A stretch of DNA of 64,000 bases. Source: Terriglobia bacterium (lineage in GTDB: Bacteria; Acidobacteriota; Terriglobia; Terriglobales; Acidobacteriaceae). Below are positions 3,846-52,384 of the stretch, in pieces. Where the stretch lies: assembly GCA_020073665.1 (NCBI GenBank), contig JAIQEU010000015.1, positions 62,001 through 126,000 of the forward strand. Reading direction: 5' to 3'. The translations under genes were made by a program, and so were the position numbers. Positions within the stretch are counted from its first letter, which is position 1, and the number at the start of each line of letters is the position of its first letter. The notes under the pieces are model-generated. The model was not told where the DNA came from. It did not search any database and worked only from the letters and a program-made list of their open reading frames with translations.

Positions 3846-5417
3846 TCAGCCAGCCTGCGCAGCCAGCAGGTCGGTGTCGCCCTCGGCTTTGGGCACGACT
3901 TCCACGACGTGGCTCATGCCCCGGTCGAGAGCATCGGCGAGTGCAACCGGAAATACTGCGGTCAGCAAATTGATGTCGAGTTGCAGGTCACGACCGCTGT
4001 ACAGGCGATAGATGACCATCGACCCGCGGCGCCGGTTGTTCGCGGTCACCAGATCCAGATTCAGACTCCAGGCGCTCACCAGTTCATGGGCGAAACGGCT
4101 GCCCGGCTTCTTCCAGCGCAGGACGGGTTGCTCTCCGCGGCCGCTCACAATCTGCAGACCGTGCAGCGTCGGAAACTGGCCGGGAAGAAGGTTGAGCTCC
4201 AAGTCGAAGGCGTCAAAATCATTACTGCCAAACGCAGCCGTCAGGATACGGCAAAGCTGATCATAATCCTGAGTGACCTTCAACTCTTCTACCGCACGGC
4301 GAATGGCGAGGTTGTTGACAAAAATCTGCCGCTGTTCCATGGTGCGCTGGGCCACCCGCCGCAATTCGCCGAACTCCAAGTAGCCGAGATGCTGCACTCC
4401 CATCCAGATGCCCGTACCCAGCACCGCCAGCACCAGGCCCAGCGTGCTGCCCGTAGGCCAAAGCAGGAACAGGCTGAGCAGCGCAAATAAAGCCGACACC
4501 GCATAAAGGACGATCACGACTTGGCGGTGAGACAAGCCCCGCTGCAGCAGTTTGTGGTGGATATGTTCGCGGTCCGCGGTAAACACCGGCCGTCCGCCAA
4601 TCCACCGCCGCAAGACCGAGAGGGTAGTTTCCAGGATCGGCAGTCCGAACGAGACCACGGGAATGGCAACCGCGATGATGGTTGGCGCCTTCTGCGCACC
4701 GTGCAGCGCCAACGCGCTCAGCAGGAACCCGATGAACTGGCTGCCGCAGTCTCCCAAGAAGATGGTTGCCGGATTGAAGTTGTAACGGAGGAATCCAAGA
4801 GTGGCACCCGCCAGCGCCAGGGTCATGACCGAGACCAGGGCCGATTGGCTTAGCAAGGCCACAACAAACACTACCAGCGTGGAGAATAGCGCGGAACCGG
4901 CGGCCAATCCGTCCAAGCCATCAATCAGGTTGAATGCATTGGTAACAGCAAGCACCCACAGAATGGTCAACGGAAGGCCGACAAACCAGGAGAAATGGTG
5001 AGCACCGAACAGCACCGGCAAGTTCGAGATTCGAAGCCCGCCGGCGAACAGCATGGTGGCGGCCACGGCCTGGACCGCAAACTTGAAATAGGGGCCAACC
5101 GTACGCAGATCGTCGTAGACCCCCAGCAGGAAAATCAGCGATGCCGGCACCAGTATGGTGACCAGCGTCCCCGGCGAGAAGCCAAATCTCAGCCCAGGAT
5201 ATCTCCAACCAGCCAGCAGAGCGATTGCAACGGTCAGGAGGAAGGCAAGGAAAATAGCAACTCCGCCCAAGCGAGGAAGCGGGGTGCTGTGCAGATGCCG
5301 CTCCAGGGCGGGCGCAGCAACCCATCCCCGGGCCGCGGCCAAGTTACGCACGTACCTGGTGAGAATAAACGAAAGCAGCACTGAGGCTGCGAATATTCCC
5401 AGGTAGAAAAGCGTCAA
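3846..5417 (-). CDS. WecA/MraY-type undecaprenyl-phosphate sugar-1-phosphate transferase with C-terminal soluble domain
   Basis: 523 residues. The first 340 or so form the multi-helix polyprenyl-phosphate phosphoglycosyltransferase core. Signature elements: Asp-Asp at 102-103 (YDDLRTVG), NLIDGLDG at 163-170, GDCGSQFIG near 222, and the HIHH motif at 285-288. It should transfer a sugar phosphate (GlcNAc-1-P or similar) from a UDP-sugar to undecaprenyl phosphate at the inner membrane, starting repeat-unit synthesis. Residues 350-523 are an extra soluble region absent from a minimal WecA, of unknown function. The start codon is TTG at 5417, supported by a strong GAGGGGGAG Shine-Dalgarno 5 bases upstream. 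A candidate promoter lies at 5553-5581. Sugar specificity cannot be read from the sequence. Confidence 0.9.
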   Translation of the reverse strand: MTLFYLGIFAASVLLSFILTRYVRNLAAARGWVAAPALERHLHSTPLPRLGGVAIFLAFLLTVAIALLAGWRYPGLRFGFSPGTLVTILVPASLIFLLGVYDDLRTVGPYFKFAVQAVAATMLFAGGLRISNLPVLFGAHHFSWFVGLPLTILWVLAVTNAFNLIDGLDGLAAGSALFSTLVVFVVALLSQSALVSVMTLALAGATLGFLRYNFNPATIFLGDCGSQFIGFLLSALALHGAQKAPTIIAVAIPVVSFGLPILETTLSVLRRWIGGRPVFTADREHIHHKLLQRGLSHRQVVIVLYAVSALFALLSLFLLWPTGSTLGLVLAVLGTGIWMGVQHLGYLEFGELRRVAQRTMEQRQIFVNNLAIRRAVEELKVTQDYDQLCRILTAAFGSNDFDAFDLELNLLPGQFPTLHGLQIVSGRGEQPVLRWKKPGSRFAHELVSAWSLNLDLVTANNRRRGSMVIYRLYSGRDLQLDINLLTAVFPVALADALDRGMSHVVEVVPKAEGDTDLLAAQAG

Positions 5418-5581: not shown

Positions 5582-5677
5582 TTCTCTTTCTTGGTACTCC
5601 TGTGGAAAACTTTCGCTAGTTTTTTGGACACTGATGCGACATGCAAACGGTTGTGGGTCCGTTGAGTCGGCAAGCTG

Positions 5678-5686
5678 TGCTAGACT
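5678..5686 (+). promoter_or_regulatory. Extended -10 element (TGCTAGACT) upstream of the Wza-type gene
   Basis: A TG-n-TAGACT element ends 32 bases before the ATG at 5719. No good -35 is present at the usual distance, as expected of extended -10 promoters. Near-identical TGCTAGAAT elements lie upstream of the Wzc-type and dehydrogenase genes. Confidence 0.3.
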
Positions 5687-5718
5687 TTGGTTCTCGTCGC
5701 ATGTTGAGGGGTAGCGAA

Positions 5719-6747
5719 ATGCGGTCTTTCCGATGGAGTAGTGCGCGTGCTGTCTTTGTCCTCACTTTCCCATTGCTGATGGTGAGTTTCTCGGCCGGCG
5801 CGATGGCACAGGACGCCCCGCCCGCGCAGGAGAAGCCCAGCAGTACGGCTGCGGCACCGGCCCCGGCGGCGGATCCGTCCGCTTCACCGGCACCACAGGA
5901 TACTCTTGCCAGCGACGACAAAACCGACTCTTCCCTCCACTTGGGCGTTGGAGACCTGCTCGAGTTCAGCGTCTACAACGTACCGGATTTGGCGACCAAG
6001 ACTCGCGTCGGCAGCAATGGTGATATCTACTTGCCATTGATCGACTATGTACATGTTGCCGGGCTCACGCCGGAAGAAGCCCAGGCCTTGATCGAGAAAC
6101 GGTATTCAGACGGGGGATTCCTTAAGAATCCCCACGTCAGTCTGTTCATCAGCGAATATGCGTCCCAAGGCGCCAGCGTATTGGGAGAGGTGTCGAAGCC
6201 GGGCGTGTATCCCGTGCTAGGACGCCAGCGGCTGTTCGACCTGATCTCCGCGGCTGGAGGGCTTACCGAGAAAGCTGGACGAAGCATTACCGTCACCCAC
6301 CGCAACCAGCCGGATAAGCCCCTCACCGTGCCGCTCGCCCGCAACGTCACCGACAACCCCGACAGCAACATCGATGTGTTCCCAGGCGACACCGTAATCG
6401 TGCGAAAAGCCGACGTCGTGTACGTGGTCGGCGATGTAGGAAGGCCGAGTGGTTTTCTGATGGAGAGCGGGAATCTTACGGTTCTGCAGGCGATCGCCCT
6501 GGCCGGCGGAACCACTCGCACGGCCAAGCTGAGCGGCGCAAGAATTATTCGCAAGGGGCCAACGGGAATGACGGATACGCCGCTGCACCTGAAGCAGATG
6601 CTAGAAGCCAAGGCTCCAGACATGCAGATGGAAGCAGACGATATTCTCTTCGTTCCCAGCAGCGCGGGCAAGGTTGTTGCCAGCCGTACGCTTGAGGCCG
6701 CCTTGCAGGCTGCTACCGCCGTCAGCATTGTGGCCATCCGGCCATGA
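5719..6747 (+). CDS. Wza-type polysaccharide export protein (SLBB domains)
   Basis: 342 residues from the chosen ATG at 5719, which has GAGGGG about 7 bases upstream. Earlier in-frame ATGs at 5641 and 5701 lack ribosome binding sites and would push the signal peptide inward. The N-terminus is a classical signal peptide (basic residues, hydrophobic core, Ala-x-Ala before Gln-Asp) with no lipobox cysteine, unlike Wza proper. After a Pro/Ala linker comes the polysaccharide export domain (from GVGDLLEF), then two SLBB beta-grasp domains, the first around GEVSKPGVYP and the second around GDVGRPSGF. It should form or gate the periplasmic/outer-membrane export channel, working with the Wzc-type kinase at 44575. 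It converges on the GT4 gene, stop to stop within 14 bases. Confidence 0.92.
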   Translation: MRSFRWSSARAVFVLTFPLLMVSFSAGAMAQDAPPAQEKPSSTAAAPAPAADPSASPAPQDTLASDDKTDSSLHLGVGDLLEFSVYNVPDLATKTRVGSNGDIYLPLIDYVHVAGLTPEEAQALIEKRYSDGGFLKNPHVSLFISEYASQGASVLGEVSKPGVYPVLGRQRLFDLISAAGGLTEKAGRSITVTHRNQPDKPLTVPLARNVTDNPDSNIDVFPGDTVIVRKADVVYVVGDVGRPSGFLMESGNLTVLQAIALAGGTTRTAKLSGARIIRKGPTGMTDTPLHLKQMLEAKAPDMQMEADDILFVPSSAGKVVASRTLEAALQAATAVSIVAIRP

Positions 6748-6760: not shown

Positions 6761-8029
6761 CTACGCCGCCACCGCTCCCGCATGGGGAGTTCTTTTCAGC
6801 AACGCATTCAGCACCGCGATGTAGGTTTCGGCGGTACGCTGGCGGGAGTATCGCAGCAAGATATGGCGACGAGCGCTGCGGCCCATCCCTTCCCGCAGGG
6901 CGGCATCCTGCGCCAGGCGGGTGACCGCAGCCACCAGGTCCGAGGCATTCTCCGGCTCGATAACGATTCCAGCCTGCGCTGCTTCGACAATCTCCTTAGC
7001 CTGGCCCTGGACGCCCAGAATGACGGGACGGGCGCAGGCCATGAATTCCAGCATCTTGGTGGGAATCACCGTCTTGAACAGATCGGTCTTTTTCAGCAGC
7101 ACCAGGCAGGCGTCTGAAGCGCAGATGTAGGCCGGAATTTTCTCTCGCGGCTGCTGATCGACGAAACGCATGTTCGTAAGCCCACGGGAGGCTGCCAGGG
7201 AGATGATGCGTTGCTTGTCGGCGCCTTCCCCCACCAGCAGGAACAGAACCTCGGGCGACGAATGCTGCAGGCGGTACGCAGCTTCCACCAGGGTTTCCAG
7301 GCCATGGGCCATGCCCAGGGTTCCGATGTAGGCGACTACGAATTTTCCCTCGGCGCCCAGCTCGCTTCGCAGATTCGGGTCGACGTTCTGCGGCGAGAAC
7401 AGGTCGGTCTCGACTCCATTCTCGACAACCGAAATCTTTTCCCGTGGCACTTTCCAGTTCTTGACCAGATATTCTTCAAACGCGGGAGTGACTACCACGA
7501 TCCGGTCGGAATGGCGGTAGAGGAAGCCGGCGATCTTTGCCAGGGAATGATGCAGGAGACCGTCTCCATTTCCCATGCCGACGGCGGCGAGTGATTCCGG
7601 CCACAAGTCGCGCACTTCGAAAACAAACGGCACGCGTTTGCACCGCGCCAGCCACCAACCCGACAATCCCACCAGCAATTGCGGCGAGGTGGCGATCACA
7701 ACATCGGGCGAGGAAGTCATCAGCCCCGTGCTCGCGGCTGACAGGCAGAACGAACTGTAGTTCAACATGCGCTCGTACGCCTTGCGATTGGGAAAAGGCA
7801 GGAGCCAAGTGCGGACGACGTGCACTCCATCCACAGTCTCGCGCATCACCAAGCGGCGGAACTTGCCACGATACTCCGGCGGAATCACACCCGTGGGGTG
7901 ATTGGGAAAACCCGTAAGCACGGTGACCTGGTGGCCATCTCGCGCCCAATGCCGGGACAACTCGGCAGCGCGGGCAGAGGGTGCGCCCATCTCCGGCGGA
8001 AAATATTGCGAGACGTAAAGGATTTTCAC
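6761..8029 (-). CDS. Glycosyltransferase family 4 (WbuB-like)
   Basis: 422 residues from the GTG at 8029. It begins KILYVSQYFPPE, typical of the WbuB group, and contains FEVRDLWPES near residue 140, ENGVETDLF near 210, and a C-terminal PTKMLEFMA donor-binding region. It should add a sugar (fucosamine-type donors are known for the group) to a lipid-linked glycan on the cytoplasmic face of the membrane. GTG 8029 is preferred to the ATG at 8116 because the latter would overlap the upstream gene by 82 bases. From 8029 there are only 5 bases between the upstream stop and this start, with AGGG just before it, suggesting translational coupling. It is the last gene of the modification operon. Confidence 0.9.
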   Translation of the reverse strand: MKILYVSQYFPPEMGAPSARAAELSRHWARDGHQVTVLTGFPNHPTGVIPPEYRGKFRRLVMRETVDGVHVVRTWLLPFPNRKAYERMLNYSSFCLSAASTGLMTSSPDVVIATSPQLLVGLSGWWLARCKRVPFVFEVRDLWPESLAAVGMGNGDGLLHHSLAKIAGFLYRHSDRIVVVTPAFEEYLVKNWKVPREKISVVENGVETDLFSPQNVDPNLRSELGAEGKFVVAYIGTLGMAHGLETLVEAAYRLQHSSPEVLFLLVGEGADKQRIISLAASRGLTNMRFVDQQPREKIPAYICASDACLVLLKKTDLFKTVIPTKMLEFMACARPVILGVQGQAKEIVEAAQAGIVIEPENASDLVAAVTRLAQDAALREGMGRSARRHILLRYSRQRTAETYIAVLNALLKRTPHAGAVAA

Positions 8030-8034
8030 GGTCC

Positions 8035-9015
8035 CTAGTAATAACAGAGCTTGAATGCACCTTTGTAGCACAGAGCGCGCGTGCGCTTGGCGCGGCTGTG
8101 CGCGTAGCCTTCCCAACGGTCGGCATAACGGGCGAAGGCGTCGTTCCCAGTAAGCCGGTGCATCACTCGCAACTGCACTATATGCAACTGGTGATAGAAC
8201 GGACTGGCCACCATGGGCAGGCGCGTCCCCGACTGCTCGTACAGCGACCAGAATCCCAAGTCGTAAGAATCAAGGTTATGAAGCAAAGTCTGCACTGCCT
8301 GATCGAAAAGCGCACGTACCGCATTGTCTGACGTCAGCAAAGAGTAATCGTAAACGCCCCACGCCGCCCACAGAAAGCCATTCAGGATGTGAGTTGGGGG
8401 CGAAACGATGTACTCCTCGATCCAGAGATCTCCGCGCTCGTCGGTGAACATTACGCCGCCGTTCGACGTGGGCGTGCGAAAGCTGGCGAAGGCCCGCTCC
8501 GCCGCCTGCAGAAAGCTGCGGTCCCCGGTTTCAACATGGGCGCGAACCAGCAGAGAAATTCCTTGCCCTTGCGCCAGGCCGGAGTACCAGGGCGCCCGCA
8601 AGGGCGTGCGGTACTCCCAATCGAAGTGGTGATTCCACACCCAAACACCAAACCCATTCTGCTCCAGGTGAGTGACCAGCCAGTTGGCTGCCAGCAAGAA
8701 CTTTTGCTTGCGATCGGGCTGAGCAGTGCGGCAAAACAGGTTAAAGTTGCCTAGCCCCCACTGCGCGATGGCGATCGGGTTGTACTGCAGTCCGATCTCA
8801 CCGTGGTAGTCAAGCATGGGGATGCCGGCGGAATCGTAGTGCCCGGTGTAATCTGCCTTCTCCAGAAAGCCCATGTAGTATTCGCCGAGTTTGCCGAAGG
8901 AGGCATTGGGGTTGGCTTGCGGCGTCTCGTGCCAGAACGTGAGCTGGCTGGTGCCAGGCACCAGGTAAGCCCCGAAAATACGCCGGTAGTACTGCAAGCG
9001 CTTGGAAAACGGCAT
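8035..9015 (-). CDS. D-glucuronyl C5-epimerase-like protein
   Basis: 326 residues, essentially the C-terminal catalytic domain of D-glucuronyl C5-epimerases (C5-epim_C family). Recognisable elements are WYSGLAQGQ followed by a helix (about 165-180), an ILNGFLWAAWGVYDY stretch (about 230-245), and YDLGFWSLYE (about 272-281). Family members flip the C5 configuration of glucuronic acid within a polymer, giving iduronic acid. No signal peptide is evident, so a cytoplasmic or lipid-linked substrate is implied. The operon also holds two amidotransferase-like AsnB proteins and a carbamoyltransferase, fitting tailoring of uronic-acid sugars. Substrate and activity are inferred; an (alpha/alpha) barrel with another carbohydrate activity is the main alternative. 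Confidence 0.8.
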   Translation of the reverse strand: MPFSKRLQYYRRIFGAYLVPGTSQLTFWHETPQANPNASFGKLGEYYMGFLEKADYTGHYDSAGIPMLDYHGEIGLQYNPIAIAQWGLGNFNLFCRTAQPDRKQKFLLAANWLVTHLEQNGFGVWVWNHHFDWEYRTPLRAPWYSGLAQGQGISLLVRAHVETGDRSFLQAAERAFASFRTPTSNGGVMFTDERGDLWIEEYIVSPPTHILNGFLWAAWGVYDYSLLTSDNAVRALFDQAVQTLLHNLDSYDLGFWSLYEQSGTRLPMVASPFYHQLHIVQLRVMHRLTGNDAFARYADRWEGYAHSRAKRTRALCYKGAFKLCYY

Positions 9016-9081
9016 GTGGGAATTGATCGAACTATAGCATGAGGACGGAACGCAGAGGCCGCTACTGACGAGACGCCGGCG

Positions 9082-10158
9082 CTACGGGCGCACCCGCCAC
9101 AGGCTGGTTTCGAGGTCGCCTTCTTCCACCGCTACCGTGGTGATGGCCAGAATGTTGGTTTGGTTTCGTCCATCGGGCAAGAACGCATTTCCGTACTGAA
9201 ACAACCCCATCGGCCAGCGGTCCTTCTTCCAGGAGAGCAACCGCTGCCAATCGTCTCCGTCGCGCGATCCATACAAGCCGACATCGAACACAGGATTCAC
9301 CACGCTGGGCTCGACCATGGTGGAGAAAAAGATGGACTCACCGACCCGACATCCATAGATCGAAGAGCTGCGGAGTTCAGCGACTTCGGCAAGGTTCATA
9401 CGGCGATCCAAGCGGTAGACATGGTTGGCTTCCAGCGGCGTGTCGGAGGAGAAATACAGAGCATCAACGGTGGGAACCAGCGCCACTGCCCGGGCCTGCT
9501 GGCTGCCGGAGAGTGCGACGTCCAGGGTACTGAGGTCGCAAGCGGCGCGCAAAATGCGGCATTCTGCTCCTTTGTCGCCGGTAAGCACCCACAGGCAATT
9601 TTCCCATTGGTCGTAAACGATGTTGTGTACGTGGCGGATTGCGCCCTTGGCGAACGTGTAAGCCACGCTCCAGGTCGCGCCCTGATCCGACGAGGCGTAC
9701 ACGTGCACTTCATCGCGGCCGGGATTATCGAAATACTCGCCCCAAAGGAGATGTCCCGACGGAGTGGCCGCAATATGCAGGGGCCGGGTGCCACGAAGCA
9801 CTCTGTGGCAAACGCGAAATTCGCTTTCCCCGGGCGCGAGGCGAATGATCGCACCCGGCACCGCGGCAACCATGTGCCCCGTTGGAAGTACCGCCAGCGC
9901 GTGAAACCCATCGCGAAAAAGCCGGGAACCAAGGCGGATCGACGAACTGAGACTCCTCCACCATGATGGCCGATATCGCCCGATCGGCTGCCACTCGACA
10001 CTGCCTGCTTTCATCTGCGCGCGAAGCAGTGTGTAGCCGCGCGAAGCGTACAGCACGTCGTCGCACCACGCCAGGGCGCGCATCCGCGGAAACGCAGCTA
10101 CACGCTCCAAGCCCCATGCTGCCGGTTCTTCCAGTGGAGAGGCTCGATGCGTCGCCAT
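9082..10158 (-). CDS. Predicted beta-propeller protein of unknown function
   Basis: 358 residues with no signal peptide or membrane segment. The sequence is built from repeated beta-strand blocks with WEN.LWV, SSDQGATW (a BNR/Asp-box-like turn near 155), and similar edges, suggesting a sialidase-like or WD-type propeller. I do not recognise a catalytic set. It starts 6 bases after the carbamoyltransferase stop and lies 66 bases before the C5-epimerase-like gene, so it belongs to the modification operon. It could be a carbohydrate-binding scaffold, a lyase or a glycan-modifying enzyme; the sequence alone does not decide. Confidence 0.7.
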   Translation of the reverse strand: MATHRASPLEEPAAWGLERVAAFPRMRALAWCDDVLYASRGYTLLRAQMKAGSVEWQPIGRYRPSWWRSLSSSIRLGSRLFRDGFHALAVLPTGHMVAAVPGAIIRLAPGESEFRVCHRVLRGTRPLHIAATPSGHLLWGEYFDNPGRDEVHVYASSDQGATWSVAYTFAKGAIRHVHNIVYDQWENCLWVLTGDKGAECRILRAACDLSTLDVALSGSQQARAVALVPTVDALYFSSDTPLEANHVYRLDRRMNLAEVAELRSSSIYGCRVGESIFFSTMVEPSVVNPVFDVGLYGSRDGDDWQRLLSWKKDRWPMGLFQYGNAFLPDGRNQTNILAITTVAVEEGDLETSLWRVRP

Positions 10159-10164
10159 GGCTGC

Positions 10165-11898
10165 TCAGTTCTCCGATTTCAGCGCCAGATACGGCCCGAT
10201 GGCCAGCACATCCATGCGCGTGCGCTTGAAGCAGTCGATGGCCTCATCGGGCGCACAGACGATGGGTTCATTCTCGTTGAAGCTGGTGTTCAGGATCACT
10301 GGGATTCCGGTCTTGCGACGGAACGCTTGAATTAGATCGTAGTACAGCGGATTCTCTTCCCGGCTCACAGTCTGCAGGCGGCCGGTATCGTCCGCGTGGT
10401 TGACCGCGCAAAGCTGGGCGCGCTTGTCGGGACGGATCTTGTAAACGTGCAGCATGAATGGCGAGGGATGGTCGTGCTCAAAATACTCGTGCTGATACTC
10501 GGCCAGAATCGACGGAGCAAACGGCCGAAACCATTCGCGGTGCTTGATGCGGGCGTTGAGGATGTCTTTCATGTCAGGGCGGCCGGGGTGGGCCACGATG
10601 GACCGGTTGCCCAGGGCACGCGGCCCCCATTCCATGCGTCCCTGGAACCAGCCGACCACGTTGCCGCCGGCGACCTGGTCGGCGACCGCTTCCAGCAACG
10701 GTTCGCGATCGAGCTTTCGGTAGTGCAGACCAGCTTTCTTTAGATCAGACTCGATTCGCGATTCTGCGAACTCGGGACCCAGGTAGGAATTCCTCATTAC
10801 GTAGTGACGCGGCTGCTTCAGCACGGAATGATAGGTATGCAGGGCTGCGCCAATGGCCAAACCTTCATCGCCCGCGGCTGGTTGGATCCACGTGCTCCGG
10901 AACGGCGTCCGGTCAAAAAGCTTTCCATTGGCCACGCTGTTGAGTGCGCATCCGCCGGCCATCGCCAGGTCCGGCAGGGGCACTCGCTGATGCAACTGGT
11001 TCAGCAGGTGGAAGAAGACCTCCTCGAAGCGATGCTGCATGGCATAGGCCAGGTCCATGTCACGCTGGGTGATTTCGGTGTGCGGCTCGCGGGGTTGGCC
11101 AAACAGCTTCACCATGCGATCCGAAAAATGGCGCGCCAGGCGAACCGTGCCATCCGGCAGAACCTGCATGCCCTGGTTGCTGCCGAGCGGCTTGAAATAA
11201 TTCAAGTCCAGCTGAAAATTTCCGTTCTTTAAGCCAACGATTTCGCCAATCTGTTCGCAGTAAGTTGGCCTGCCGTAGGGTGCGAGGCCCATGACCTTGC
11301 CTTCGTCGCCATACTTCTTGTAACCGATGAACTCGCAGATCATAGTGTAGAAACTGCCCAACGAATGCGGCAGGAAAACGCGATCGAGCACTTCGATCTC
11401 ATTGCCTTCACACCGGGCCATCATGGTGGAAACAAAATCGCCGGAGCCGTCATAGCTGAAGCCCGCAGCTTTTTCCAAGGGCGAGCAGTAGTAGGCACTG
11501 GCGATGTGCGCGATGTGGTGCTCGAGGTGATGTTCCTGAAAACGCAATTGCTTTGCATCAACCTCGAGCGCCCCGGCCAGCAGAGAACGCACGTCGCGCA
11601 TGGCTTCTTTGCGCTGGCGCAGACGGATGAAGTTTAGAATTTTCGCGGGATTGGCCAGGGCATACTGAAATTTCTTGGCCAGATTGGCGTCACTGTCCTG
11701 GCCGACGGCCACGTGGTCAACCTGGGTGATCTTCGCCCCGACTGCATCGAGGCAGGCTTTGACCGCCAGCGCGGGGAAACCTCCGTAGTGCTTGGCCCGG
11801 TTCAACCGCTCCTCGGCAATGGCAAATTTGACTTCGCCGTCCTCGACAATCGCGGCCGAGGCATCGGCGTGAAACATGTTCAGGCCCAGTATCAGCAT
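10165..11898 (-). CDS. NodU/CmcH-type carbamoyltransferase
   Basis: 577 residues, normal length. The N-terminal ASKHA-fold domain starts GLNMFHADASAAIV and includes the HHLEHHIAH cluster (about 122-130). The C-terminal YrdC-like carbamoyl-transfer domain contains WFQGRMEWGPRALGNRS and NTSFNENEP. Family members use carbamoyl phosphate and ATP to O-carbamoylate sugars, as NodU does on Nod factors. Here the target is likely a sugar of the glycan repeat unit in the cytoplasm. It lies 34 bases after the bidomain oxidoreductase gene and 6 bases before the propeller gene. Family assignment is secure; the acceptor is unknown. Confidence 0.93.
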   Translation of the reverse strand: MLILGLNMFHADASAAIVEDGEVKFAIAEERLNRAKHYGGFPALAVKACLDAVGAKITQVDHVAVGQDSDANLAKKFQYALANPAKILNFIRLRQRKEAMRDVRSLLAGALEVDAKQLRFQEHHLEHHIAHIASAYYCSPLEKAAGFSYDGSGDFVSTMMARCEGNEIEVLDRVFLPHSLGSFYTMICEFIGYKKYGDEGKVMGLAPYGRPTYCEQIGEIVGLKNGNFQLDLNYFKPLGSNQGMQVLPDGTVRLARHFSDRMVKLFGQPREPHTEITQRDMDLAYAMQHRFEEVFFHLLNQLHQRVPLPDLAMAGGCALNSVANGKLFDRTPFRSTWIQPAAGDEGLAIGAALHTYHSVLKQPRHYVMRNSYLGPEFAESRIESDLKKAGLHYRKLDREPLLEAVADQVAGGNVVGWFQGRMEWGPRALGNRSIVAHPGRPDMKDILNARIKHREWFRPFAPSILAEYQHEYFEHDHPSPFMLHVYKIRPDKRAQLCAVNHADDTGRLQTVSREENPLYYDLIQAFRRKTGIPVILNTSFNENEPIVCAPDEAIDCFKRTRMDVLAIGPYLALKSEN

Positions 11899-11932
11899 GG
11901 ACTGCAGGGTTGCCTTTCTGAAATTGGAATCA

Positions 11933-14149
11933 TCAATCGGCGCGTGAATGCGAGGCCAGGAACCCGGTCGCGGCTACTGCCAATGACCGGCCGGAAGAGC
12001 GCGAATCGAAGGCTCGCAAGGTGGCTAAGGTTGTGGCGATGATTTCCGCGAACGCGACGGGCGACTCGCCCCCGCTGAGAATTGCCTGCGCCATCGCTTC
12101 CCACTCGCCGCGGTGTCCTTTGTCCTGGCGCAGGGGTGAACGAAACACTCGTTTGCGCCCACGGCGCGCCAACTCCAGGCGGCGAAAGTCGTCCAGCACA
12201 GCCACCGAGCCGCCACCGAAGACTTCTACCCGTTCTTTCGAGTACGACCTGTCGCCATTGGCCAGATAACTGATCGTCCCTTGGGAGCCATTGGCAAATT
12301 CGAGTCCGATAATCACGTTGTCGTCCGCGTTTTGGCCGGCGTTGGCCAAACTACGAGTGTGTACCGAAATCACCGGGGCGCCGGCGAGGAACGTAAGCAG
12401 ATCCACGAAATGGCAGGCCTCGCCCAGGATGCGCCCGCCGCCCTGCTCCGGATCATTCACCCAGTGGTCGGCAGGAACAAATCCGGCATTGACCCGATAG
12501 TGCAGAACCAGCGGTTCGCGGATCTCTCCCACGAAAGACTTCATCCGCACCACCATGGGCGCAAACCGGCGATTAAACCCGACCATGAGAAGACATTTCT
12601 TGCTCACATTCGCCGCCGAATAGGCGCCGGCAATCTCGGTGAGTTCGTCTTCCGTCAGGCACAGCGGCTTCTCGCAAAAAACGTGTTTGCCGGCGTTCAG
12701 GGCAGCGCATACCTGTTTCGCATGCAGATGGTGACGGGTCGCGATGGCGACCGTGTTCACGCCTGGATCGCGCAGGATTTCTGCTTCGTCCGTTGAGCAG
12801 TAACGAAACCCGAACTTGTCCGCGGCATGACGGGCATGCGGGCCGCTCGCGGCACAAACGCCGGTGAGGTTCATGCCCGTGATTCCCTTCATCGCTGGGA
12901 GCAACGTGCTCACGGCAAAACTGCCGGCGCCAAGCAGTCCGACTGAAACCGTCTTCGGCCCCGCAGTCACGGCCGGCGTTCCCTTGTGGACCAACTCCAG
13001 GCGCGGTGTTGCCTCCGCCTCCCCGCTGTAGGTGATCAGCACGCCCATGTACGGCTCGCCCGCTCTGCCTGTGATGATGTCATACGCCTGGCGGGCGCGC
13101 TCGATGGGAATCCGGTGCGTGATCAACGATTGGACATCGACCTTTCCCTCCGCCAACAGCTGAAGGAAAGCGTCCATGTTGCGGGTCTCGGTCCAGCGTA
13201 CATAGCCGATAGGATAGTCGCGTCCCTTCTGCTCGTACGCGGCATCGTAGCGGCCGGGCCCGTACGATCGGGAGACGCGGAACTCCAATTCCTTTCCGTA
13301 ATAGAGCGGGCGCTGGATGTCCATGCCCACCGTACCCACTGCCACCACTGTGCCTCGATCACGCGCAACTTCTCCCGCGAGATTCACCGGGTCGCTGCTG
13401 GAAGTCTCGGCGGTGATCAAAACGGCATCGGCACCGTGGCCATTCGAGAGGCCAGAGCAAATATCTTTGAAATCGGGAACCGAGTCCGAAGCGTGATCGG
13501 CGCCAAGCCGCCTGGCGAGTTCGACCCGTTCATGAACGAGATCCATGCCAACCACGCGGCAGCCGGCAGCCTTCAGCATCTGCACCGTGAGTTGGCCCAC
13601 CAGTCCCAGCCCAATGACCGCGGCGACGTCACCCAATTTCACACCGGCGGTGCGGATCCCGTGCAGCGCAACGGCGCCAACGGTGGCAAAGGCAGCTTCG
13701 TCAAACGACACTGTGGACTCTGCCGGGATTCTCGAGACCAGCAATCGCGGCACGCAGGCACACTCAGCGTGGACCGCGTACCCCGCCCCGGCGCAAGCCA
13801 CGCTATCGCCAACCTTGATGTCGCTCACGTCATCGCCGACTGCGACCACGGTCCCCGCACTGCTGTAGCCGAGCGCGGTGGATTGGTCGAGACGACTGCG
13901 CACCGCTGAGACAGCGGAAAAAACACCGTCGCGCTGCACTTTGGCAAGGACTTCCCGCACCAAGTCAGGACGCGCCTTTGCCTTCTGCAGCAAATTCTTG
14001 CTGGCGAACTCGGAAGACGCCCGCTCGGTGCCGGCGGAAACCAGCGATGCTGCCACCCGAACCAGAACGCATCCGGCCAATAGCTTTGGCGATGGGACGT
14101 CGGCAACGGAGATCTCACCCGTGCGCGCGTGCTGTAGGACCTGCTTCAT
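11933..14149 (-). CDS. Bidomain oxidoreductase: zinc-type alcohol dehydrogenase fused to Gfo/Idh/MocA
   Basis: 738 residues. The N-terminal half is an MDR alcohol-dehydrogenase-like domain, with GroES-like fold to about 160 and Rossmann fingerprint GLGLVGQL near 190. The C-terminal half is a Gfo/Idh/MocA domain starting at GLLGAGSFAVS (about 395) with the CEKPL catalytic-lysine motif near 490. Such fusions are recurrent in exopolysaccharide clusters beside asnB or heparinase-like genes and are thought to oxidise or reduce sugar nucleotides or polymer sugars. The true start is ATG 14149: it overlaps the upstream asnB stop as ATGA, indicating coupling. An in-frame start further upstream at 14179 would overlap asnB more. 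The exact reaction is unknown; both NAD(P) sites look intact. Confidence 0.88.
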   Translation of the reverse strand: MKQVLQHARTGEISVADVPSPKLLAGCVLVRVAASLVSAGTERASSEFASKNLLQKAKARPDLVREVLAKVQRDGVFSAVSAVRSRLDQSTALGYSSAGTVVAVGDDVSDIKVGDSVACAGAGYAVHAECACVPRLLVSRIPAESTVSFDEAAFATVGAVALHGIRTAGVKLGDVAAVIGLGLVGQLTVQMLKAAGCRVVGMDLVHERVELARRLGADHASDSVPDFKDICSGLSNGHGADAVLITAETSSSDPVNLAGEVARDRGTVVAVGTVGMDIQRPLYYGKELEFRVSRSYGPGRYDAAYEQKGRDYPIGYVRWTETRNMDAFLQLLAEGKVDVQSLITHRIPIERARQAYDIITGRAGEPYMGVLITYSGEAEATPRLELVHKGTPAVTAGPKTVSVGLLGAGSFAVSTLLPAMKGITGMNLTGVCAASGPHARHAADKFGFRYCSTDEAEILRDPGVNTVAIATRHHLHAKQVCAALNAGKHVFCEKPLCLTEDELTEIAGAYSAANVSKKCLLMVGFNRRFAPMVVRMKSFVGEIREPLVLHYRVNAGFVPADHWVNDPEQGGGRILGEACHFVDLLTFLAGAPVISVHTRSLANAGQNADDNVIIGLEFANGSQGTISYLANGDRSYSKERVEVFGGGSVAVLDDFRRLELARRGRKRVFRSPLRQDKGHRGEWEAMAQAILSGGESPVAFAEIIATTLATLRAFDSRSSGRSLAVAATGFLASHSRAD

Positions 14150-16125
14150 GCGGAGGCCGCCTGTGGCGCATCCATCCACCGGTTCGCGCTGCTATCCAGG
14201 AAAGTTCGCATCCAGAGTTCCAAAGTGAGGAACTGCCATATCGGCATTGACCAATCTTGTACGCCGCGTCGGTGCTCATCCACAAATGCTCGGACGGCCT
14301 GCGGGCGGAACAAGCCGCGGTCGCGCAGTTGCGATGGGGAGAGCAGATCATCGACCATTTCTTTCAGATCATGCGCCAGCCAGTAGTCCACCGGCGCGGC
14401 AAAACCCGCCTTGGGCTGGTTCAAAACCTCGCGCGGCAGAACGTCCTGCATCGCCTTGCGCAAAATGTATTTCGTCGTAGGCCTGAAAGTCCCCTTCAGC
14501 TTCAGCGACGGAGGTACGTTCCAGGCAACGAATTCGGCGAGTTCGCGATCAAGGAATGGCACGCGCACTTCAACCGACGAGGCCATGCTCATCTTGTCGC
14601 TATAGGTGAGATTCAGGCTGGTCATGAAGATCTTGGTATCGAGGTAAAGCATCTGGTTCAGGAAATCAGCGTCCTCGACCTCGCCAAACGCAGCTCGATG
14701 CCGCGCGGAGGGATCGTACCCGCCAATCTCCTCTGTCAGCGCCGGTGTGTACAAAGAATCCTTTTGCGCCGCATCCAGGTAGGTAGAGTTCATCACGAAG
14801 CGGTCGATTGCCGGTAACGACGCACTACGCGCCATCTTCTTTGCCAGACGCACGCTGCCTTTCACCGAGGTTCCGCGCATCCCCGGCAGGCGAGCCAGCA
14901 CTGGCTCCAGCAGGCGACGCATCGCAGAAGGTACCCGCTGGTAGGCCTGTGCCCAATAGTGCGCAGCGTGTTTGCGATATCCCGCAAAGAGTTCGTCTCC
15001 TCCAACCCCAGAAAGCAACACCGTCGCCTGTTTGCGCGCCTCGCGACACACCAGGTACGCCGTGATGATCGCCGGGTCCGCCGTGGGTTCGTCCATGTGC
15101 CAAGTCAGGCGAGGCAGCAGGTCGGCAACGTCGGGCTCGACCACGATCTGCTGGTTCTCACATCCCAGTTTGCGGGCCAGGCGAGCCGGCACCGCGGGAT
15201 CGTCGAGCGTCGTTTCGCCGACCCGGTACTTGGGCGGAAACGTGATGGTGTAGGTACGGACCGGCTGCCGAGTGGCACGCGACATCATGGCGACGATGCT
15301 CGACGAATCCAGCCCCGCGCTGAGAAACGCCCCAATCGGGACGTCGCTGATCATCTGCGCTTCCACCGATTGGCGAAAACGCTCGCGAACCTCTTCAGCC
15401 AATTCTTTTTCCGGTCTCGGACTGATCGAATTCTCTGCTGGGAAAGTCAGGTCCCAGTACTGTTTGATTTCGAGCTTGCCGTCTCGAAAGGTCGCGGAAT
15501 GCCCTGCGGGAAGCTTTTGGATCCCCCTAAACATGGTTTTGGGATCCGGGACCCAGAGGAACGTCAGATACTGATGCAGCGATTGGGGATCGATTCCCGC
15601 TTCCATCCCAGGCACCTGCAGCAATGCTTTGACCTCGGAAGCGAATGCAAATCGCCGCCCGTTGTGCGCGTAGTAGAAGGGTTTCACCCCGAAATGATCA
15701 CGCGCCATGAACAGCGTGGGCGTGCCCGAACGAAGATCACAAATCGCAAAAGCGAACATGCCGTTCAACCGTTTGACGCACTCCGCTCCCTCTTCCTCAT
15801 ACAGGTGCACCACGACCTCGGTATCGGTGTTGGAAACGAAGCGATGCCCTTTGCTTAGCAGGCCACGACGCAACTCGGCGAAGTTGTAGATCTCTCCGTT
15901 GTAGGTAATCCAGACCGTGCGGTCCTCGTTGCACATCGGCATGTGACCACCAGGAGAAAGATCGATAATGGCCAGCCGTCGGCTGCCCAAGCCGAAGTAG
16001 GAACCATCCGGAAGACGCTGCTCCCATAGACCGGCGTCGTCCGGCCCGCGGTGGGCCTGTACCGACGTCATGCGCGCCAGCGTCTCGTGATCTCCGCAAT
16101 TAACCAGGCCGTTTATGCCGCACAT
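14146..16125 (-). CDS. asnB: Asparagine synthetase-type amidotransferase (copy 1)
   Basis: 659 residues from the ATG at 16125. This start places Cys2 next to the initiator Met (MCGING), as required for the N-terminal-nucleophile glutaminase; a longer reading to 16206 would bury it. Residues 2-200 or so are the class II glutaminase, with HRGPDD and RRLAIIDLSP. The synthetase domain follows, with an ATP-pyrophosphatase motif reading SAGLDSSS instead of the usual SGGxDSS. In surface-glycan clusters such paralogues can amidate sugar carboxylates (as proposed for WbpS) instead of making asparagine. The gene follows the GT2 gene by 10 bases and overlaps the bidomain oxidoreductase by 4. A housekeeping asparagine role is possible but less likely in this context. 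Confidence 0.9.
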   Translation of the reverse strand: MCGINGLVNCGDHETLARMTSVQAHRGPDDAGLWEQRLPDGSYFGLGSRRLAIIDLSPGGHMPMCNEDRTVWITYNGEIYNFAELRRGLLSKGHRFVSNTDTEVVVHLYEEEGAECVKRLNGMFAFAICDLRSGTPTLFMARDHFGVKPFYYAHNGRRFAFASEVKALLQVPGMEAGIDPQSLHQYLTFLWVPDPKTMFRGIQKLPAGHSATFRDGKLEIKQYWDLTFPAENSISPRPEKELAEEVRERFRQSVEAQMISDVPIGAFLSAGLDSSSIVAMMSRATRQPVRTYTITFPPKYRVGETTLDDPAVPARLARKLGCENQQIVVEPDVADLLPRLTWHMDEPTADPAIITAYLVCREARKQATVLLSGVGGDELFAGYRKHAAHYWAQAYQRVPSAMRRLLEPVLARLPGMRGTSVKGSVRLAKKMARSASLPAIDRFVMNSTYLDAAQKDSLYTPALTEEIGGYDPSARHRAAFGEVEDADFLNQMLYLDTKIFMTSLNLTYSDKMSMASSVEVRVPFLDRELAEFVAWNVPPSLKLKGTFRPTTKYILRKAMQDVLPREVLNQPKAGFAAPVDYWLAHDLKEMVDDLLSPSQLRDRGLFRPQAVRAFVDEHRRGVQDWSMPIWQFLTLELWMRTFLDSSANRWMDAPQAASA

Positions 16126-16135
16126 GCCGGTTGAC

Positions 16136-17032
16136 TCATGTCCTTTTGGTCCGCAATTCGTAGATCTTGGCTTTGGTGTGGAACATTTGCATTGCCTGGA
16201 AACCACAGTAAATCAGCCCAGGAACTCCGTCGAGCAATCCAAGGCGAAAAATGTACCGGTAAAGAAACAGCAGAAGGGGCGATCCCGGCAACCGGTAAAA
16301 GCGGGTCTTCAGCCAACGGCGCCGCTGCGCCTGCGAGCCGAAGAGCGTGGGCTGCAGGCCCCCAGGATTGGTCTCACCCTCGAGCAGCACACGGGCTTCC
16401 CAGTTGGAATACTCATCATGCTTCTGGATGTAGCGCGAAAGCGACTCCACGTTATGGTGAACCAGAGGATGGCGAAGCCTGCCGCTTTGGCCTTGAACCA
16501 CCACATGCTCGTGCACTTCCATATCGCACATGGAGGTGTCCTGGTCGCGTAAGCGACATTCGTAATGGCCTTTTCCGCGACGGAATAGCGACAGCTTGTA
16601 GAAGCTGGCGCCACAGTGGCGCAACCGGCGTCCCAGGAAATACATCTGTAACGCCACCGAGTAGCCGGCGATATGCGGGTTCTGGATGGCTTGCTTAATC
16701 TCCTCCGCCAATTCGGGAGTCAATGCCTCGTCGGCATCAACCAGGAAGACCCAGTCATAGGCGAGCGGAAGCGTGTCCATTGCCCACTGGCGCTTCTTCG
16801 GCCAGCCGCCCTGATAATGAAACTGCACCACCTTCGCTTGATACGAGCGCGCAATCTCGACCGTGGCATCAGTGCTACCTGAGTCGACTACATAGACCTC
16901 ACCCACGCTGCGGAGAGATTCCAAGCAGCGTGGCAGATTGCTGGCCTCGTTGCGTGCAGCCACAATCACGCTCACGGGCAGCAGCGTAGCCGGACTGGTG
17001 GCTTGTACCTCGATGAGTTGCTTCAGGGCCAT
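16136..17032 (-). CDS. Glycosyltransferase family 2 (WaaE/KdtX-like)
   Basis: 298 residues. The GT-A domain begins VSVIVAARNEASNLPRCLES at about 21, with VVDSGSTD near 50 and the metal-binding DADE near 97-100, a region characteristic of beta-1,4-glucosyltransferases of the WaaE/KdtX group. A basic hydrophobic C-terminal region (about 245-285) probably attaches it to the membrane. It lies between the two asnB genes, 100 bases after asnB copy 2 and 10 bases before copy 1. Donor sugar is not predictable with confidence. Confidence 0.88.
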   Translation of the reverse strand: MALKQLIEVQATSPATLLPVSVIVAARNEASNLPRCLESLRSVGEVYVVDSGSTDATVEIARSYQAKVVQFHYQGGWPKKRQWAMDTLPLAYDWVFLVDADEALTPELAEEIKQAIQNPHIAGYSVALQMYFLGRRLRHCGASFYKLSLFRRGKGHYECRLRDQDTSMCDMEVHEHVVVQGQSGRLRHPLVHHNVESLSRYIQKHDEYSNWEARVLLEGETNPGGLQPTLFGSQAQRRRWLKTRFYRLPGSPLLLFLYRYIFRLGLLDGVPGLIYCGFQAMQMFHTKAKIYELRTKRT

Positions 17033-17132
17033 GCGGTTGAAATCAGTCCCACCATATTACCCGAATGGAGAACCTTCCCAAGCCTGAAATCAAGGTGGAT
17101 AACATAAGGTCCCACCTCCCATGCGGCCATGC

Positions 17133-19052
17133 TCATGCCGTGACCTGATGCAATTCGCACCAGCGCTGCAGCACATATAGCGACCATGGTCGGGACCACG
17201 AGGTGGCGCCTCGCTGGAAGTCTTCCCAAACCTGGCTCACTGCCTGGGAGTTCAACACCGCTGACAGCGGGCCCAGCGCCGTCCGGTGCAGCGTTTCGTC
17301 CAAGCCTGCGCGCAGTTGGTCCCGCATCCAGTGCTCGAACGGGAGCGCGAATCCACGCTTGGGACGGTGCACAACTTCCGAGGGCAGCGCGTCACCCAAC
17401 GCACTCACGAGTAGAGGCTTTGGCTTATCTGCACTCAGTTTCCAGTCGCCGGGCAAAGCCAGCAACTTCTGCGCCAGGCTGTGATCAATCAGCGGGACTC
17501 TGACTTCCAAACCGTGGGCCATGCTCATGACATCAGAATCGCGGAGCAGCGTATTCAGCATGTAGCAGCGCGCTTCGAGATAGGAGACTCGGTTGGTGGG
17601 ATCGAGATGGCGAGCGCGTTCCAGACTGTCCTGCAAGGGAGCGCTGGCACGCTCAATCGCCCGCTGCTCCGAAGAAGCCAGCAGGCGCTCGCACTGCGCC
17701 CCGGTAAACACCGCGCGCGAGAGAAAGTACGGATGCAGCGCGTCGTTGGCCCGGGCCAGCGCTGCTAGTTTTCGATTCTGGTCCGTGTCTGAGGCGAACC
17801 AGGAGAACACCCCGGCGAGCGAACGCCGAGCGAAGCGGGGCACGTGTTGCCAGCGGCGTGAAAAACGCTCCATCGCGGGAACGGTGCGAAAGCTGGAGTA
17901 TCCGGCGAACAACTCGTCTCCGCCCAGCCCGGAGAGCGCCACCTTGATTCCCGCGGCTCGGGTCTGCCGCGACACCAGGTAAGTGTTCAGGCCATCGATG
18001 GTGGGCTGATCCATGGCCTGCAGCGCGCCCGGAATGGCTTCCAGCGCATCATTCTGCGAAACCAGTATCTCCTGATGATTCGTCGCAAACTGCCGCGCCA
18101 CCAGTCGGGAGAATTCCCCTTCGCTGTAGTCGGCTTCACGAAACACGATCGAGAAAGTATCCGGCCGGATTCCACTGCGTGCCAGCAGGCCCACGACGCT
18201 GCTGGAGTCGATGCCGCCCGACAGAAACACGCCCACCGGAACGTCACTGACCATCTGCATGCGGACGGACTCGTCCAGGATGGCGTGAATCTCGTCTTCA
18301 AGTTGCCTGCGATCCGGTGCCTGCTGCCCTCTCGCGAGGCCCCGCGATCCTTCGCCGTGAGACACCATGTCCCAATACATCACCTCGCGCACTCCGCCCT
18401 TCTCCCAGACCAGGTAGTGGCCAGGACGTAGCGCGCTCACACCTTCCACCAGCGTGATGGGGTCGTACACTGAACCGAAAGTCAGATAGCTCACCAACCC
18501 GGCGTGATCCAAACGGCGTGGCACCAGTCCCGTGCCAAGCAGGGTGCGAAGTTCGGAGGCGAAAAGAAAACATGAGCCGGAGGTGCAGTAGTACAGCGGT
18601 TTGATGCCCATCGGATCGCGCGCCACGAATAACCGGTGCCGCTTGGCGTCCCAGATGGCGAAGGCAAACATGCCACGCAGCTTCTCCAGACAGCCTTCGC
18701 CCCAGCGGTCGTATGCCTTGAGCAGGACTTCGGTGTCGGAGTGGCTGCGAAACTGTACTCCGTCGCTTTCCAGGGTTGCGCGGATTTCGCGAAAGTTGTA
18801 AATCTCGCCATTGTGGACGATCCAGTTCCCCGTCTCCGGGTCCGACATGGGCTGGTGTCCCAGCGGAGAAAGGTCGAGAATAGCCAGGCGCCGACTGCCC
18901 AAACCGACCTCCAACGGCTGTGGCTCGCTCTCCCGAACGATAACGGTGCCGGAGTCATCCGGGCCGCGGTGCGCCAGCGACTGGGTGGCACGATCGAGCA
19001 AGTCGGGCGCGACACGCGCATTACGCGCCAGAATTCCGACAATGCCGCACAC
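17133..19052 (-). CDS. asnB: Asparagine synthetase-type amidotransferase (copy 2)
   Basis: 639 residues, starting with GTG at 19052 so that Cys2 is the glutaminase nucleophile (M-C-G-I-V-G). A GGAG-rich Shine-Dalgarno (AGGAGAGGAG) lies about 6 bases upstream. The glutaminase domain shows HRGPDDSG and RRLAILDLSP; the synthetase domain carries a canonical SGGIDSSS pyrophosphatase loop near 263. It is clearly paralogous to copy 1 but divergent in the C-terminal third, so the two may amidate different acceptors. It is the first gene of the modification operon; a candidate promoter lies at 19108-19137. Confidence 0.9.
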   Translation of the reverse strand: MCGIVGILARNARVAPDLLDRATQSLAHRGPDDSGTVIVRESEPQPLEVGLGSRRLAILDLSPLGHQPMSDPETGNWIVHNGEIYNFREIRATLESDGVQFRSHSDTEVLLKAYDRWGEGCLEKLRGMFAFAIWDAKRHRLFVARDPMGIKPLYYCTSGSCFLFASELRTLLGTGLVPRRLDHAGLVSYLTFGSVYDPITLVEGVSALRPGHYLVWEKGGVREVMYWDMVSHGEGSRGLARGQQAPDRRQLEDEIHAILDESVRMQMVSDVPVGVFLSGGIDSSSVVGLLARSGIRPDTFSIVFREADYSEGEFSRLVARQFATNHQEILVSQNDALEAIPGALQAMDQPTIDGLNTYLVSRQTRAAGIKVALSGLGGDELFAGYSSFRTVPAMERFSRRWQHVPRFARRSLAGVFSWFASDTDQNRKLAALARANDALHPYFLSRAVFTGAQCERLLASSEQRAIERASAPLQDSLERARHLDPTNRVSYLEARCYMLNTLLRDSDVMSMAHGLEVRVPLIDHSLAQKLLALPGDWKLSADKPKPLLVSALGDALPSEVVHRPKRGFALPFEHWMRDQLRAGLDETLHRTALGPLSAVLNSQAVSQVWEDFQRGATSWSRPWSLYVLQRWCELHQVTA

Positions 19053-21676: not shown

Positions 21677-22654
21677 TCATGGGCAAACCTGTGTCGCCAC
21701 GAGGCGGCCTGCCACGTCTAACACCACATCCGGCGGCGGCGACGACGCGAGACGACCGAGGTCGAAACTGAGATGCTGCGGTTGGTACATCGACAGCAGG
21801 ACCACGCCATCGGGATTGCTGGCTAGTGCGTAGTCGAGCAGGAACGCGGCAGCCGCCTCTCGGGGCGCAAGGCAGTAGCCGGCGGCCTCCAGAAGGCTCC
21901 GCTTGTCAGCTTCCTCCGCGATCATGGAAGCCAAGGTGTCCAAGGAGCCATTTTGGCCAAACACACTATGCGTGACAAAGCCCATGGGCTGCCCCGATGG
22001 CAGTTGTGGTTTGGCCAACGCTACATTAGGCCGGATGGGGTTGTTGGCAAGCTGAATGATGCGGATGCGCTGCGACATCGTCGCAGCCGCAAGGGCAACA
22101 TTTAGATCGCCGGCCACTGCAATGGTGCGGGCGTAACCTTTGCTGACGACCTTGTCAAGAGATCGCAATACATCGTCGCGCTGCACGTCGGCAAGGCGCG
22201 GTTCGTGGAGGGCGAGCACGTCAACAAAGTCCGTCCGCAACCGCCGCAGGCTGTCCACGACGCTGGACTCGATGAATGCACCGGTCAAATCCACGGCTCG
22301 CGCAGGTGATCGGAACTTGACCACATGTTTGCGCAGCCCAGGCAACCACGCGATCAAACCCTGCACCACCGGCTTGGCGATGCTCATGGGGAAGGACACG
22401 CGGCTAGGAAGGATGCCGACCTTGGTACACACCGCGACTTGCTGGCGTTTGCCCTCGAGAAAATCTCCCAGCAAGGCCTCGGCATGGCCGTCGCCGTAGG
22501 ACGGTGCCACGTCAAACCAGCAGACACCGGCATCATAGGCTCGGGCCAATGCCGCTATTCCACGCCGGGCATCGACACGGGAGCCAAGGGAGGCGCACCC
22601 GAAGCCAATCGCGGACACGTTGCGTGAAAGCGCGGCAAAGTTAACACGGCGCAT
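21677..22654 (-). CDS. Aldo/keto reductase
   Basis: 325 residues with a TIM-barrel aldo/keto reductase layout. The catalytic tetrad is visible: Asp48 and Tyr53 in FDVAPSYGDG, Lys in VCTKVG near 82, and His in LALHEP near 150. It overlaps the end of the GMC oxidoreductase gene by 14 bases, a tight pairing that suggests sequential redox steps on one sugar or sugar-derived intermediate. It is the last gene of the 23-kb assembly operon. NADPH dependence is expected from the family; the substrate is unknown. Confidence 0.9.
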   Translation of the reverse strand: MRRVNFAALSRNVSAIGFGCASLGSRVDARRGIAALARAYDAGVCWFDVAPSYGDGHAEALLGDFLEGKRQQVAVCTKVGILPSRVSFPMSIAKPVVQGLIAWLPGLRKHVVKFRSPARAVDLTGAFIESSVVDSLRRLRTDFVDVLALHEPRLADVQRDDVLRSLDKVVSKGYARTIAVAGDLNVALAAATMSQRIRIIQLANNPIRPNVALAKPQLPSGQPMGFVTHSVFGQNGSLDTLASMIAEEADKRSLLEAAGYCLAPREAAAAFLLDYALASNPDGVVLLSMYQPQHLSFDLGRLASSPPPDVVLDVAGRLVATQVCP

Positions 22655-41088: not shown

Positions 41089-41131
41089 TGCAATCTCTTC
41101 TGTACGACAGCTTCTCCCAATCGTTGCGGCT

Positions 41132-42022: not shown

Positions 42023-42063
42023 TTTTCTCAAATCCTCAGGACTGCGGCCTCGGCGCGCCCGCG

Positions 42064-43275: not shown

Positions 43276-43283
43276 CGTCTGCC

Positions 43284-44309: not shown

Positions 44310-44336
44310 CGCCACCGCCTCTTGGAATTGACCGAT

Positions 44337-52360: not shown

Positions 52361-52384
52361 TTGATCGCAACTACACTTTCCATC

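Follow-up and report, generated by a model that had tools for sequence, protein, structure and literature searches.

A polysaccharide-tailoring operon of eight genes

The window analysed here, a stretch of 64,000 nt from an Acidobacteriota genome (Terriglobia bacterium, contig JAIQEU010000015.1) whose nearest kin among named genomes are assemblies labelled Terriglobia, gp1 and Candidatus Sulfotelmatobacter, carries at positions 6761-19052 an operon that, judging by its enzyme families, most likely acts on a single acidic sugar of a surface polysaccharide by inversion, amidation and carbamoylation. New here is that two uronate enzymes which look unrelated have repeatedly been exchanged in one slot beside BiOx, a two-domain oxidoreductase of this operon. 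An earlier note on this DNA had described eight co-directional genes with short gaps or overlaps, and their coordinates, strand and families were borne out: all eight genes are open and lie on the minus strand.

Read along that strand, the operon begins with Asn1 (17133-19052), an AsnB-type glutamine amidotransferase resembling the XrtA amidotransferases, which is followed by a family 2 glycosyltransferase, GT2 (16136-17032; PF00535, 63 bits), a second AsnB-type amidotransferase, Asn2 (14146-16125), and BiOx (11933-14149), a 'bi-domain-containing oxidoreductase' in which Pfam profiles recognise a fusion of medium-chain dehydrogenase/reductase (MDR) and Gfo/Idh/MocA domains. Next come Carbam (10165-11898), a carbamoyltransferase of the NodU/TobZ superfamily, a predicted beta-propeller protein (9082-10158), C5epi (8035-9015), a putative minimal uronyl C5-epimerase of the GlcE type, and a WcaI/WbuB-like family 4 glycosyltransferase, GT4 (6761-8029), assigned by its Pfam profile. 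Judged from the conserved domains, the listed starts of Asn2 (14146-16206), BiOx (11933-14179) and GT4 (6761-8116) look too long; the true starts are probably 16125, 14149 and near 8029, respectively, and with the start at 16125 the glutaminase cysteine of Asn2 becomes residue 2. With the revised starts the intergenic gaps from Asn1 towards GT4 are about 100, 10, -4, 34, 6, 66 and 5 nt.

C5epi, a probable minimal C5-epimerase of the GlcE type

C5epi matches PF06662 with 169.7 bits against a cut-off of 23.3 and is 30% identical to the catalytic part of human GlcE. Its predicted structure (pLDDT 94.4) is one helical domain of 326 aa, which superimposes on GlcE (6HZZ) with a Z score of 33.3 and a root-mean-square deviation of 2.8 over 275 aligned residues, the next unrelated entry having a Z score of 17.1. 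The residues E499, Y500, N510, Y560 and Y578 of GlcE, whose catalytic roles are described in passages of PMC13308652, correspond to E201, Y202, N212, Y259 and Y274 of the window protein, and all five are also present in nine aligned C5epi sequences. In the larger alignment, all 94 rows have E499 and 93 of them N510; Y560 and Y578 are invariant in the rows with a letter at the position (91 and 90 rows, respectively), and Y500 is present in 80 of the 94 rows, the others having T, A, I or M. By family, fold and catalytic residues, we infer that C5epi is a stripped-down uronyl C5-epimerase of the GlcE type.

The protein shares its family, the fold of the catalytic helical domain and the catalytic residues with the heparan sulfate epimerases of animals (6HZZ, 6I01, 4PXQ). 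Animal GlcE has a beta-hairpin and a beta-sandwich domain as well; because the predicted structure of the window protein is a single helical domain of 326 aa lacking both, we did not class it as an animal-type GlcE. It also differs from the animal enzymes in being apparently cytosolic, in lying in a Wzx/Wzy locus with WecB and in its substrate, which is probably N-acetylated. A crude hydropathy scan found no signal-like stretch in 89 of 93 C5epi N-termini; two of the four signal-like ones belong to distant homologues (L025, L026; loci and genomes of our surveys carry L and G numbers). The two terminal helices have net charges of +4 and +6, as would be fitting for a substrate bound to the membrane or linked to a lipid. 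As described in passages of PMC4432689 and PMC13308652, the epimerase RED65_08024 of Bermanella is likewise a bacterial member of PF06662. Agl32 of Halobacterium, according to passages of PMC13308652, is like C5epi a minimal single-domain C5-epimerase and acts on a cytosolic lipid-linked oligosaccharide, but lacks the catalytic residues of GlcE that C5epi retains.

A distant homologue at L010 (genome G023) contains two internal stop codons. Among 14 control genomes, PF06662 matched in Methanocaldococcus jannaschii only, and PF07940, the heparinase family treated below, in Caulobacter vibrioides only.

The operon is conserved in relatives and its middle section is modular

The earlier note had made its reading depend on linkage of these genes in relatives; when this was examined, a conserved gene order was found. 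Four of the eight contigs from close kin (L018, L019, L020 and L022) keep the order Asn2-BiOx-Carbam-propeller-C5epi-GT4. L024 has the same order with Carbam and the propeller gene truncated, L021 is without these two genes, L017 is without Asn2 and BiOx, and L023 retains BiOx, C5epi and GT4. At 11046-11883 of L024, on a contig shared with L080, the 80 N-terminal residues of Carbam adjoin the 195 C-terminal ones of the propeller protein, as if a single deletion had taken the rest of both genes.

The wider survey covered the best 80 of 94 C5epi relatives, of which 46 loci are well flanked (at least 8 kb upstream and at least 2.5 kb downstream). The core of C5epi and GT4 was found in named genomes across many phyla; GT4 is present in 78 of the 80 loci and starts no more than 500 nt after C5epi in 62 of the 77 with room for it, and is thus the constant partner of the epimerase slot. 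A Wza-like gene flanks the operon downstream in relatives as well. BiOx occurs in 47 of the 80 loci and in 33 of the 46 well-flanked ones.

To describe the middle section we selected 25 loci with GT2 in place and an intact stretch from GT2 to the epimerase. All four middle genes, Asn-BiOx-Carbam-propeller, are present in 15 of them and, with a split Asn gene, in one more; the remainder have no detected Asn (three), Carbam and propeller only (three), Asn and BiOx only (two) or nothing (one). Asn2 never occurs there without an adjoining BiOx (both in 18 loci, BiOx only in three, neither in four), and Carbam and the propeller gene are together in 22 loci and both absent from three. The middle section is modular, the linkage of the operon genes is far above chance expectation, and the conserved tailoring operon is real.

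Amidation and carbamoylation genes

Asn1 and Asn2 score 454.7 and 482.8 bits, respectively, with TIGR01536 (cut-off 267.1). The best family for both by bits is TIGR03108, the amidotransferases of XrtA/PEP-CTERM exopolysaccharide loci (Asn1 455.9, Asn2 545.9), yet both stay below its curated cut-off of 816.9. Both proteins have the features of AsnB-type enzymes, namely the Cys2 glutaminase, the SGG/SAGxDS ATP loop (SGGIDS in Asn1) and the ATP-pyrophosphatase domain. Carbam matches PF02543 (180.2 bits) and PF16861 (235.6 bits) at full length and above cut-off; with 170.8 of the 1000 bits set by the equivalog NF041651 it is not NodU by this test. The catalytic motifs and both carbamoyltransferase domains being intact, the amidation and carbamoylation chemistry proposed in the earlier note is supported.

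The propeller protein, one of the eight genes and paired with Carbam, had been overlooked in that note. Its AlphaFold2 model is all-beta (pLDDT 84.7), and it has no Pfam or NCBIfam match. A specific fold could not be named, as Foldseek returned 1125 entries at E<=0.001, among them many propellers of the PDB, with none standing out, and for this reason no function was assigned. Carbam precedes the propeller gene in 35 loci on 30 distinct contigs, whereas in 11 (L031, L033, L035, L037, L038, L044, L045, L046, L050, L053 and L054) a DDAH-like gene of the amidinotransferase fold does so, and the two are never combined; four propeller loci have neither, two of them for want of sequence. The 11 DDAH-like loci rule out Carbam and propeller as a universal two-gene unit. 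In them the DDAH-like gene stands directly upstream of the propeller gene, in the place of Carbam; carbamoyl and amidino groups are similar.

BiOx, a two-domain oxidoreductase

The MDR domain of BiOx spans residues 1 to about 390 and the Gfo/Idh/MocA domain about 410-735; the C-terminal half matches PF01408 with 74.6 bits. E503-K504-P505 and H590/D593 are present in at least 95% of 111 aligned rows, as is Tyr105 at the usual position of the zinc-ligand histidine of the GHE motif, and the window protein has Ala49 where a zinc-ligand cysteine is expected. The EKP and H..D motifs are those of the Gfo/Idh/MocA oxidoreductases. The N-terminal half lacks these catalytic zinc ligands of the zinc-dependent alcohol dehydrogenases and is probably zinc-free since tyrosine replaces the GHE histidine. 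None of the papers searched states a function for BiOx; the term 'bi-domain-containing oxidoreductase' turned up in one paper.

C5epi and heparinase-III-like proteins alternate beside BiOx

BiOx was surveyed in 297 evenly sampled Acidobacteriota genomes and in 8 plasmid records. It was found in 53 of the 297 genomes at 55 places, and the neighbourhoods of 54 of these (all except that of the window) were counted. A heparinase-like gene is present in 23 of the 54 loci, in 17 of them within 300 nt and on the same strand, and C5epi in one. PF07940 has 72 places in the 53 BiOx genomes; taking each genome as about 4.7 Mb, about 0.3 of them would be expected by chance within the counted range. Another six are found at a distance of 9-21 kb from BiOx. 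PF06662 occurs in only two of the 53 genomes, that of the window and G013. Among the 80 C5epi loci, one (L064) has both C5epi and a heparinase-like gene.

The exchange is seen within a single operon type. In G006, a genome of the window's own family, the locus L146 reads Asn-GT2-Asn-[GH127-like]-[formyltransferase-like]-heparinase-like-BiOx-GT4-Wza-WecA: flanks of the window type are kept, and C5epi, Carbam and the propeller gene are gone. The operon GT4 (E<=1e-120) was found in 10 of 61 kin genomes, namely all nine that have a close C5epi and, in addition, G006, so that all ten have either C5epi or a heparinase-like protein. On a BiOx tree of 105 proteins, of which 73 with a single state were counted, the two states need 10 changes; the tree was made by a quick method, has 32 weakly supported branches and includes some loci scored as heparinase on the strength of a gene at a distance of several kb. 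The GH127-like and formyltransferase-like genes of L146 (3740-5820) occupy the position of Carbam and the propeller gene.

The plasmid records extend the pattern. Sphingobium (pl3), Parabacteroides and Streptomyces have plasmids on which the gene after BiOx belongs to the heparinase II/III or alginate lyase families and on which wecB and wecC, or asnB, lie close by. These loci share with the operon the same BiOx, wecB/wecC or AsnB, and GT4, and differ from it in that the heparinase-like protein replaces C5epi. The BiOx loci on plasmids of Thalassospira and Streptomyces HUAS 15-9 have no heparinase-like neighbour; wecB is near both.

All three slot proteins scanned match the Hepar_II_III_N and _C profiles, their best match in the PDB is heparinase III (8.5e-56), and the alignments retain its Asn/Tyr/His regions. 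Dermatan sulfate epimerase is of the heparinase-like toroid type. According to passages of PMC13308652, GlcE and dermatan sulfate epimerase have similar active sites without sequence likeness, which makes a functional swap in the slot chemically reasonable. We infer that C5epi and the slot proteins are both uronyl C5-epimerases, and the alternation suggests that proteins labelled 'heparinase' carry out the same C5 inversion in other bacteria. None of the papers searched treats heparinase-like proteins as C5-epimerases.

The acidic sugar

WecB (2661-3740, minus strand), the UDP-GlcNAc 2-epimerase giving UDP-ManNAc, passes the equivalog cut-off of TIGR00236 (335 vs 210 bits). A UDP-ManNAc(HexNAc)-type 6-dehydrogenase (52361-53743, plus strand), typed by its nearest solved chains, lies outside the operon in the same polysaccharide locus. 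It scores 210 bits with 4r16 and 185.8 with Cap5O, both UDP-N-acetyl-mannosaminuronic acid (ManNAcA) dehydrogenases, vs 123.5 with the best UDP-glucose dehydrogenase; its best equivalog is NF008286 (WecC), at 254 of 459 bits. Of the 32 C5epi loci that do not belong to the full operon type, 20 have wecB, which in 12 lies immediately upstream of C5epi; in loci of other phyla, too, wecB adjoins C5epi. The pair wecB-wecC lies between BiOx and C5epi in L096 and beside BiOx and the heparinase-like gene on the Sphingobium and Parabacteroides plasmids. Given the dehydrogenase type and wecB beside the epimerase, the expected acid is D-ManNAcA and its C5 epimer N-acetyl-L-gulosaminuronic acid (L-GulNAcA), rather than glucuronic acid (GlcA) and iduronic acid (IdoA). 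The C5-inverted uronic residues of the earlier note are thus supported as to the inversion, by family, fold and residues, and probably wrong as to 'iduronic'. Its sugar-tailoring reading is supported as to the linked amidation, carbamoylation and C5-inversion genes and not as to the iduronic identity; the propeller it missed.

As described in passages of PMC3901696, the exopolysaccharide VPS of Vibrio contains amidated L-GulNAcA, for which its authors proposed C5 inversion of D-ManNAcA; a 2015 review (PMC4432689), in the passages concerned, called the C5-epimerase for this residue unknown. The comparison with our locus covers the description of the polymer, in which the amide is to glycine and, in the passages concerned, no carbamoyl group appears.

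Proposed pathway and alternatives

On the best explanation of the whole, on whose truth we are evenly divided, one uronic residue of a Wzx/Wzy-type repeat unit would be tailored while still on its cytosolic lipid carrier. WecB and the UDP-ManNAc-type dehydrogenase would supply D-ManNAcA. The WcaI-like GT4 and C5epi, acting as a pair, would place a D-N-acetyl-uronyl residue in the lipid-linked chain and then invert it at C5, most simply from D-ManNAcA to L-GulNAcA. BiOx may act on the same residue, perhaps by coupled oxidation and reduction of a ring carbon; by the chemistry of their families, Asn2 would then amidate its carboxylate, and Carbam with its propeller partner would carbamoylate a hydroxyl. 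In many other bacteria a cytosolic heparinase-III-like protein would carry out the C5 inversion instead. We hold it possible, though short of probable, that such proteins, which are frequent in the polysaccharide loci of bacteria and carry the label of lyases, are C5-epimerases of lipid-linked N-acetyl-hexuronic acids that have repeatedly replaced, and been replaced by, the GlcE type beside BiOx, GT4 and WecB, the product being L-GulNAcA or, should BiOx invert C3, N-acetyl-L-galactosaminuronic acid (L-GalNAcA).

Several points weigh against this explanation. Thirty of the 54 Acidobacteriota BiOx loci have neither a heparinase-like gene nor C5epi, partly on short contigs, and some of these genomes, e.g. 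G112, G142 and G147, have no heparinase-like gene at all, so BiOx would also have further partners or roles; seven neighbours in such loci (DUF362, PMT-like, sugar transferase, pyruvyl transferase, Wzy, phosphodiesterase-like and alanine racemase) were scanned for a third epimerase type and none fits. BiOx is missing from 13 of the 46 well-flanked C5epi loci and is therefore not obligatory for C5epi. The acceptors of the amide and carbamoyl groups are guesses. Only four of the same 46 loci have wecC and 15 wecB, and the genome encodes five UDP-sugar dehydrogenases, two of which exceed that of the window in PF03721; these two resemble UDP-glucose dehydrogenases by family scores alone and keep GlcA possible. 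Finally, the characterised PF06662 enzymes act on GlcA and give IdoA, according to passages of PMC13308652 and PMC4432689. The further dehydrogenases and the GlcA-acting enzymes favour the view of the earlier note, in which the same operon would act on D-GlcA to produce L-IdoA; we lowered it from first choice and consider it unlikely, because the dehydrogenase and WecB of the locus belong to the ManNAcA route and wecB is the commonest C5epi neighbour outside the full operon type.

It is still less likely that WecB, BiOx and C5epi successively invert C2, C3 and C5, although by stereochemical reasoning these inversions would turn D-GlcNAc into the L-galacto configuration, that is L-GalNAcA, the uronic counterpart of N-acetyl-L-fucosamine. 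WbpB is among the distant search matches, Gfo/Idh/MocA relatives such as WbpB reportedly oxidise C3 of UDP-GlcNAcA, and BiOx adjoins C5epi or the heparinase-like gene in most loci having both; but action at C3 and a redox-neutral pairing of the two domains are assumptions, and the 13 loci without BiOx speak against it. As for the slot proteins, they could be lyases clearing faulty chains, their alternation with C5epi being a by-product of a shared preference for uronate loci. Their closest solved relatives are indeed heparinase III lyases, with the Asn/Tyr/His region kept in the alignments. However, none of the 31 slot or near-slot proteins showed a signal-like N-terminus in the crude hydropathy scan, so that chain cutting would be cytosolic, and the swap inside the syntenic operon of L146, the changes on the BiOx tree and the near exclusion with C5epi also make a lyase role rather unlikely. 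We prefer C5 inversion as the role of both slot enzymes.

The slot swap, if it means what it appears to, names two enzyme classes for the C5 inversion in the bacterial route to L-configured amino-uronic acids; many annotated heparinases or alginate lyases may then build, not break, polysaccharides. The exchange makes the role of the cytosolic heparinase-like proteins directly testable and in this outweighs the gene list in interest. The minimal C5epi would, besides, make a handy biocatalyst for L-uronic residues.

Other genes of the polysaccharide locus

The larger Wzx/Wzy locus around the operon also encodes WecA, WecB, Wza, Wzc, two Wzy-like proteins, Wzx and the UDP-sugar dehydrogenase. Beside it are the genes for the Wza-like export protein (5641-6747, plus strand; PF02563, SLBB) and the WecA-like initiating transferase (3846-5417, minus strand; PF00953). 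A pseudaminic acid set at 37794-44384 includes PseB, PseC, PseG and PseI, all exceeding their NCBIfam cut-offs; the PseG protein carries a GNAT domain as a fusion, and a cytidylyltransferase gene lies among the set. The polysaccharide locus also contains a GMC oxidoreductase adjoining an aldo/keto reductase (21677-24323) and a sulfatase-family protein (30425-31906). Long open frames at 31907-33079, 36031-37815 and 51478-52239 have no Pfam match.

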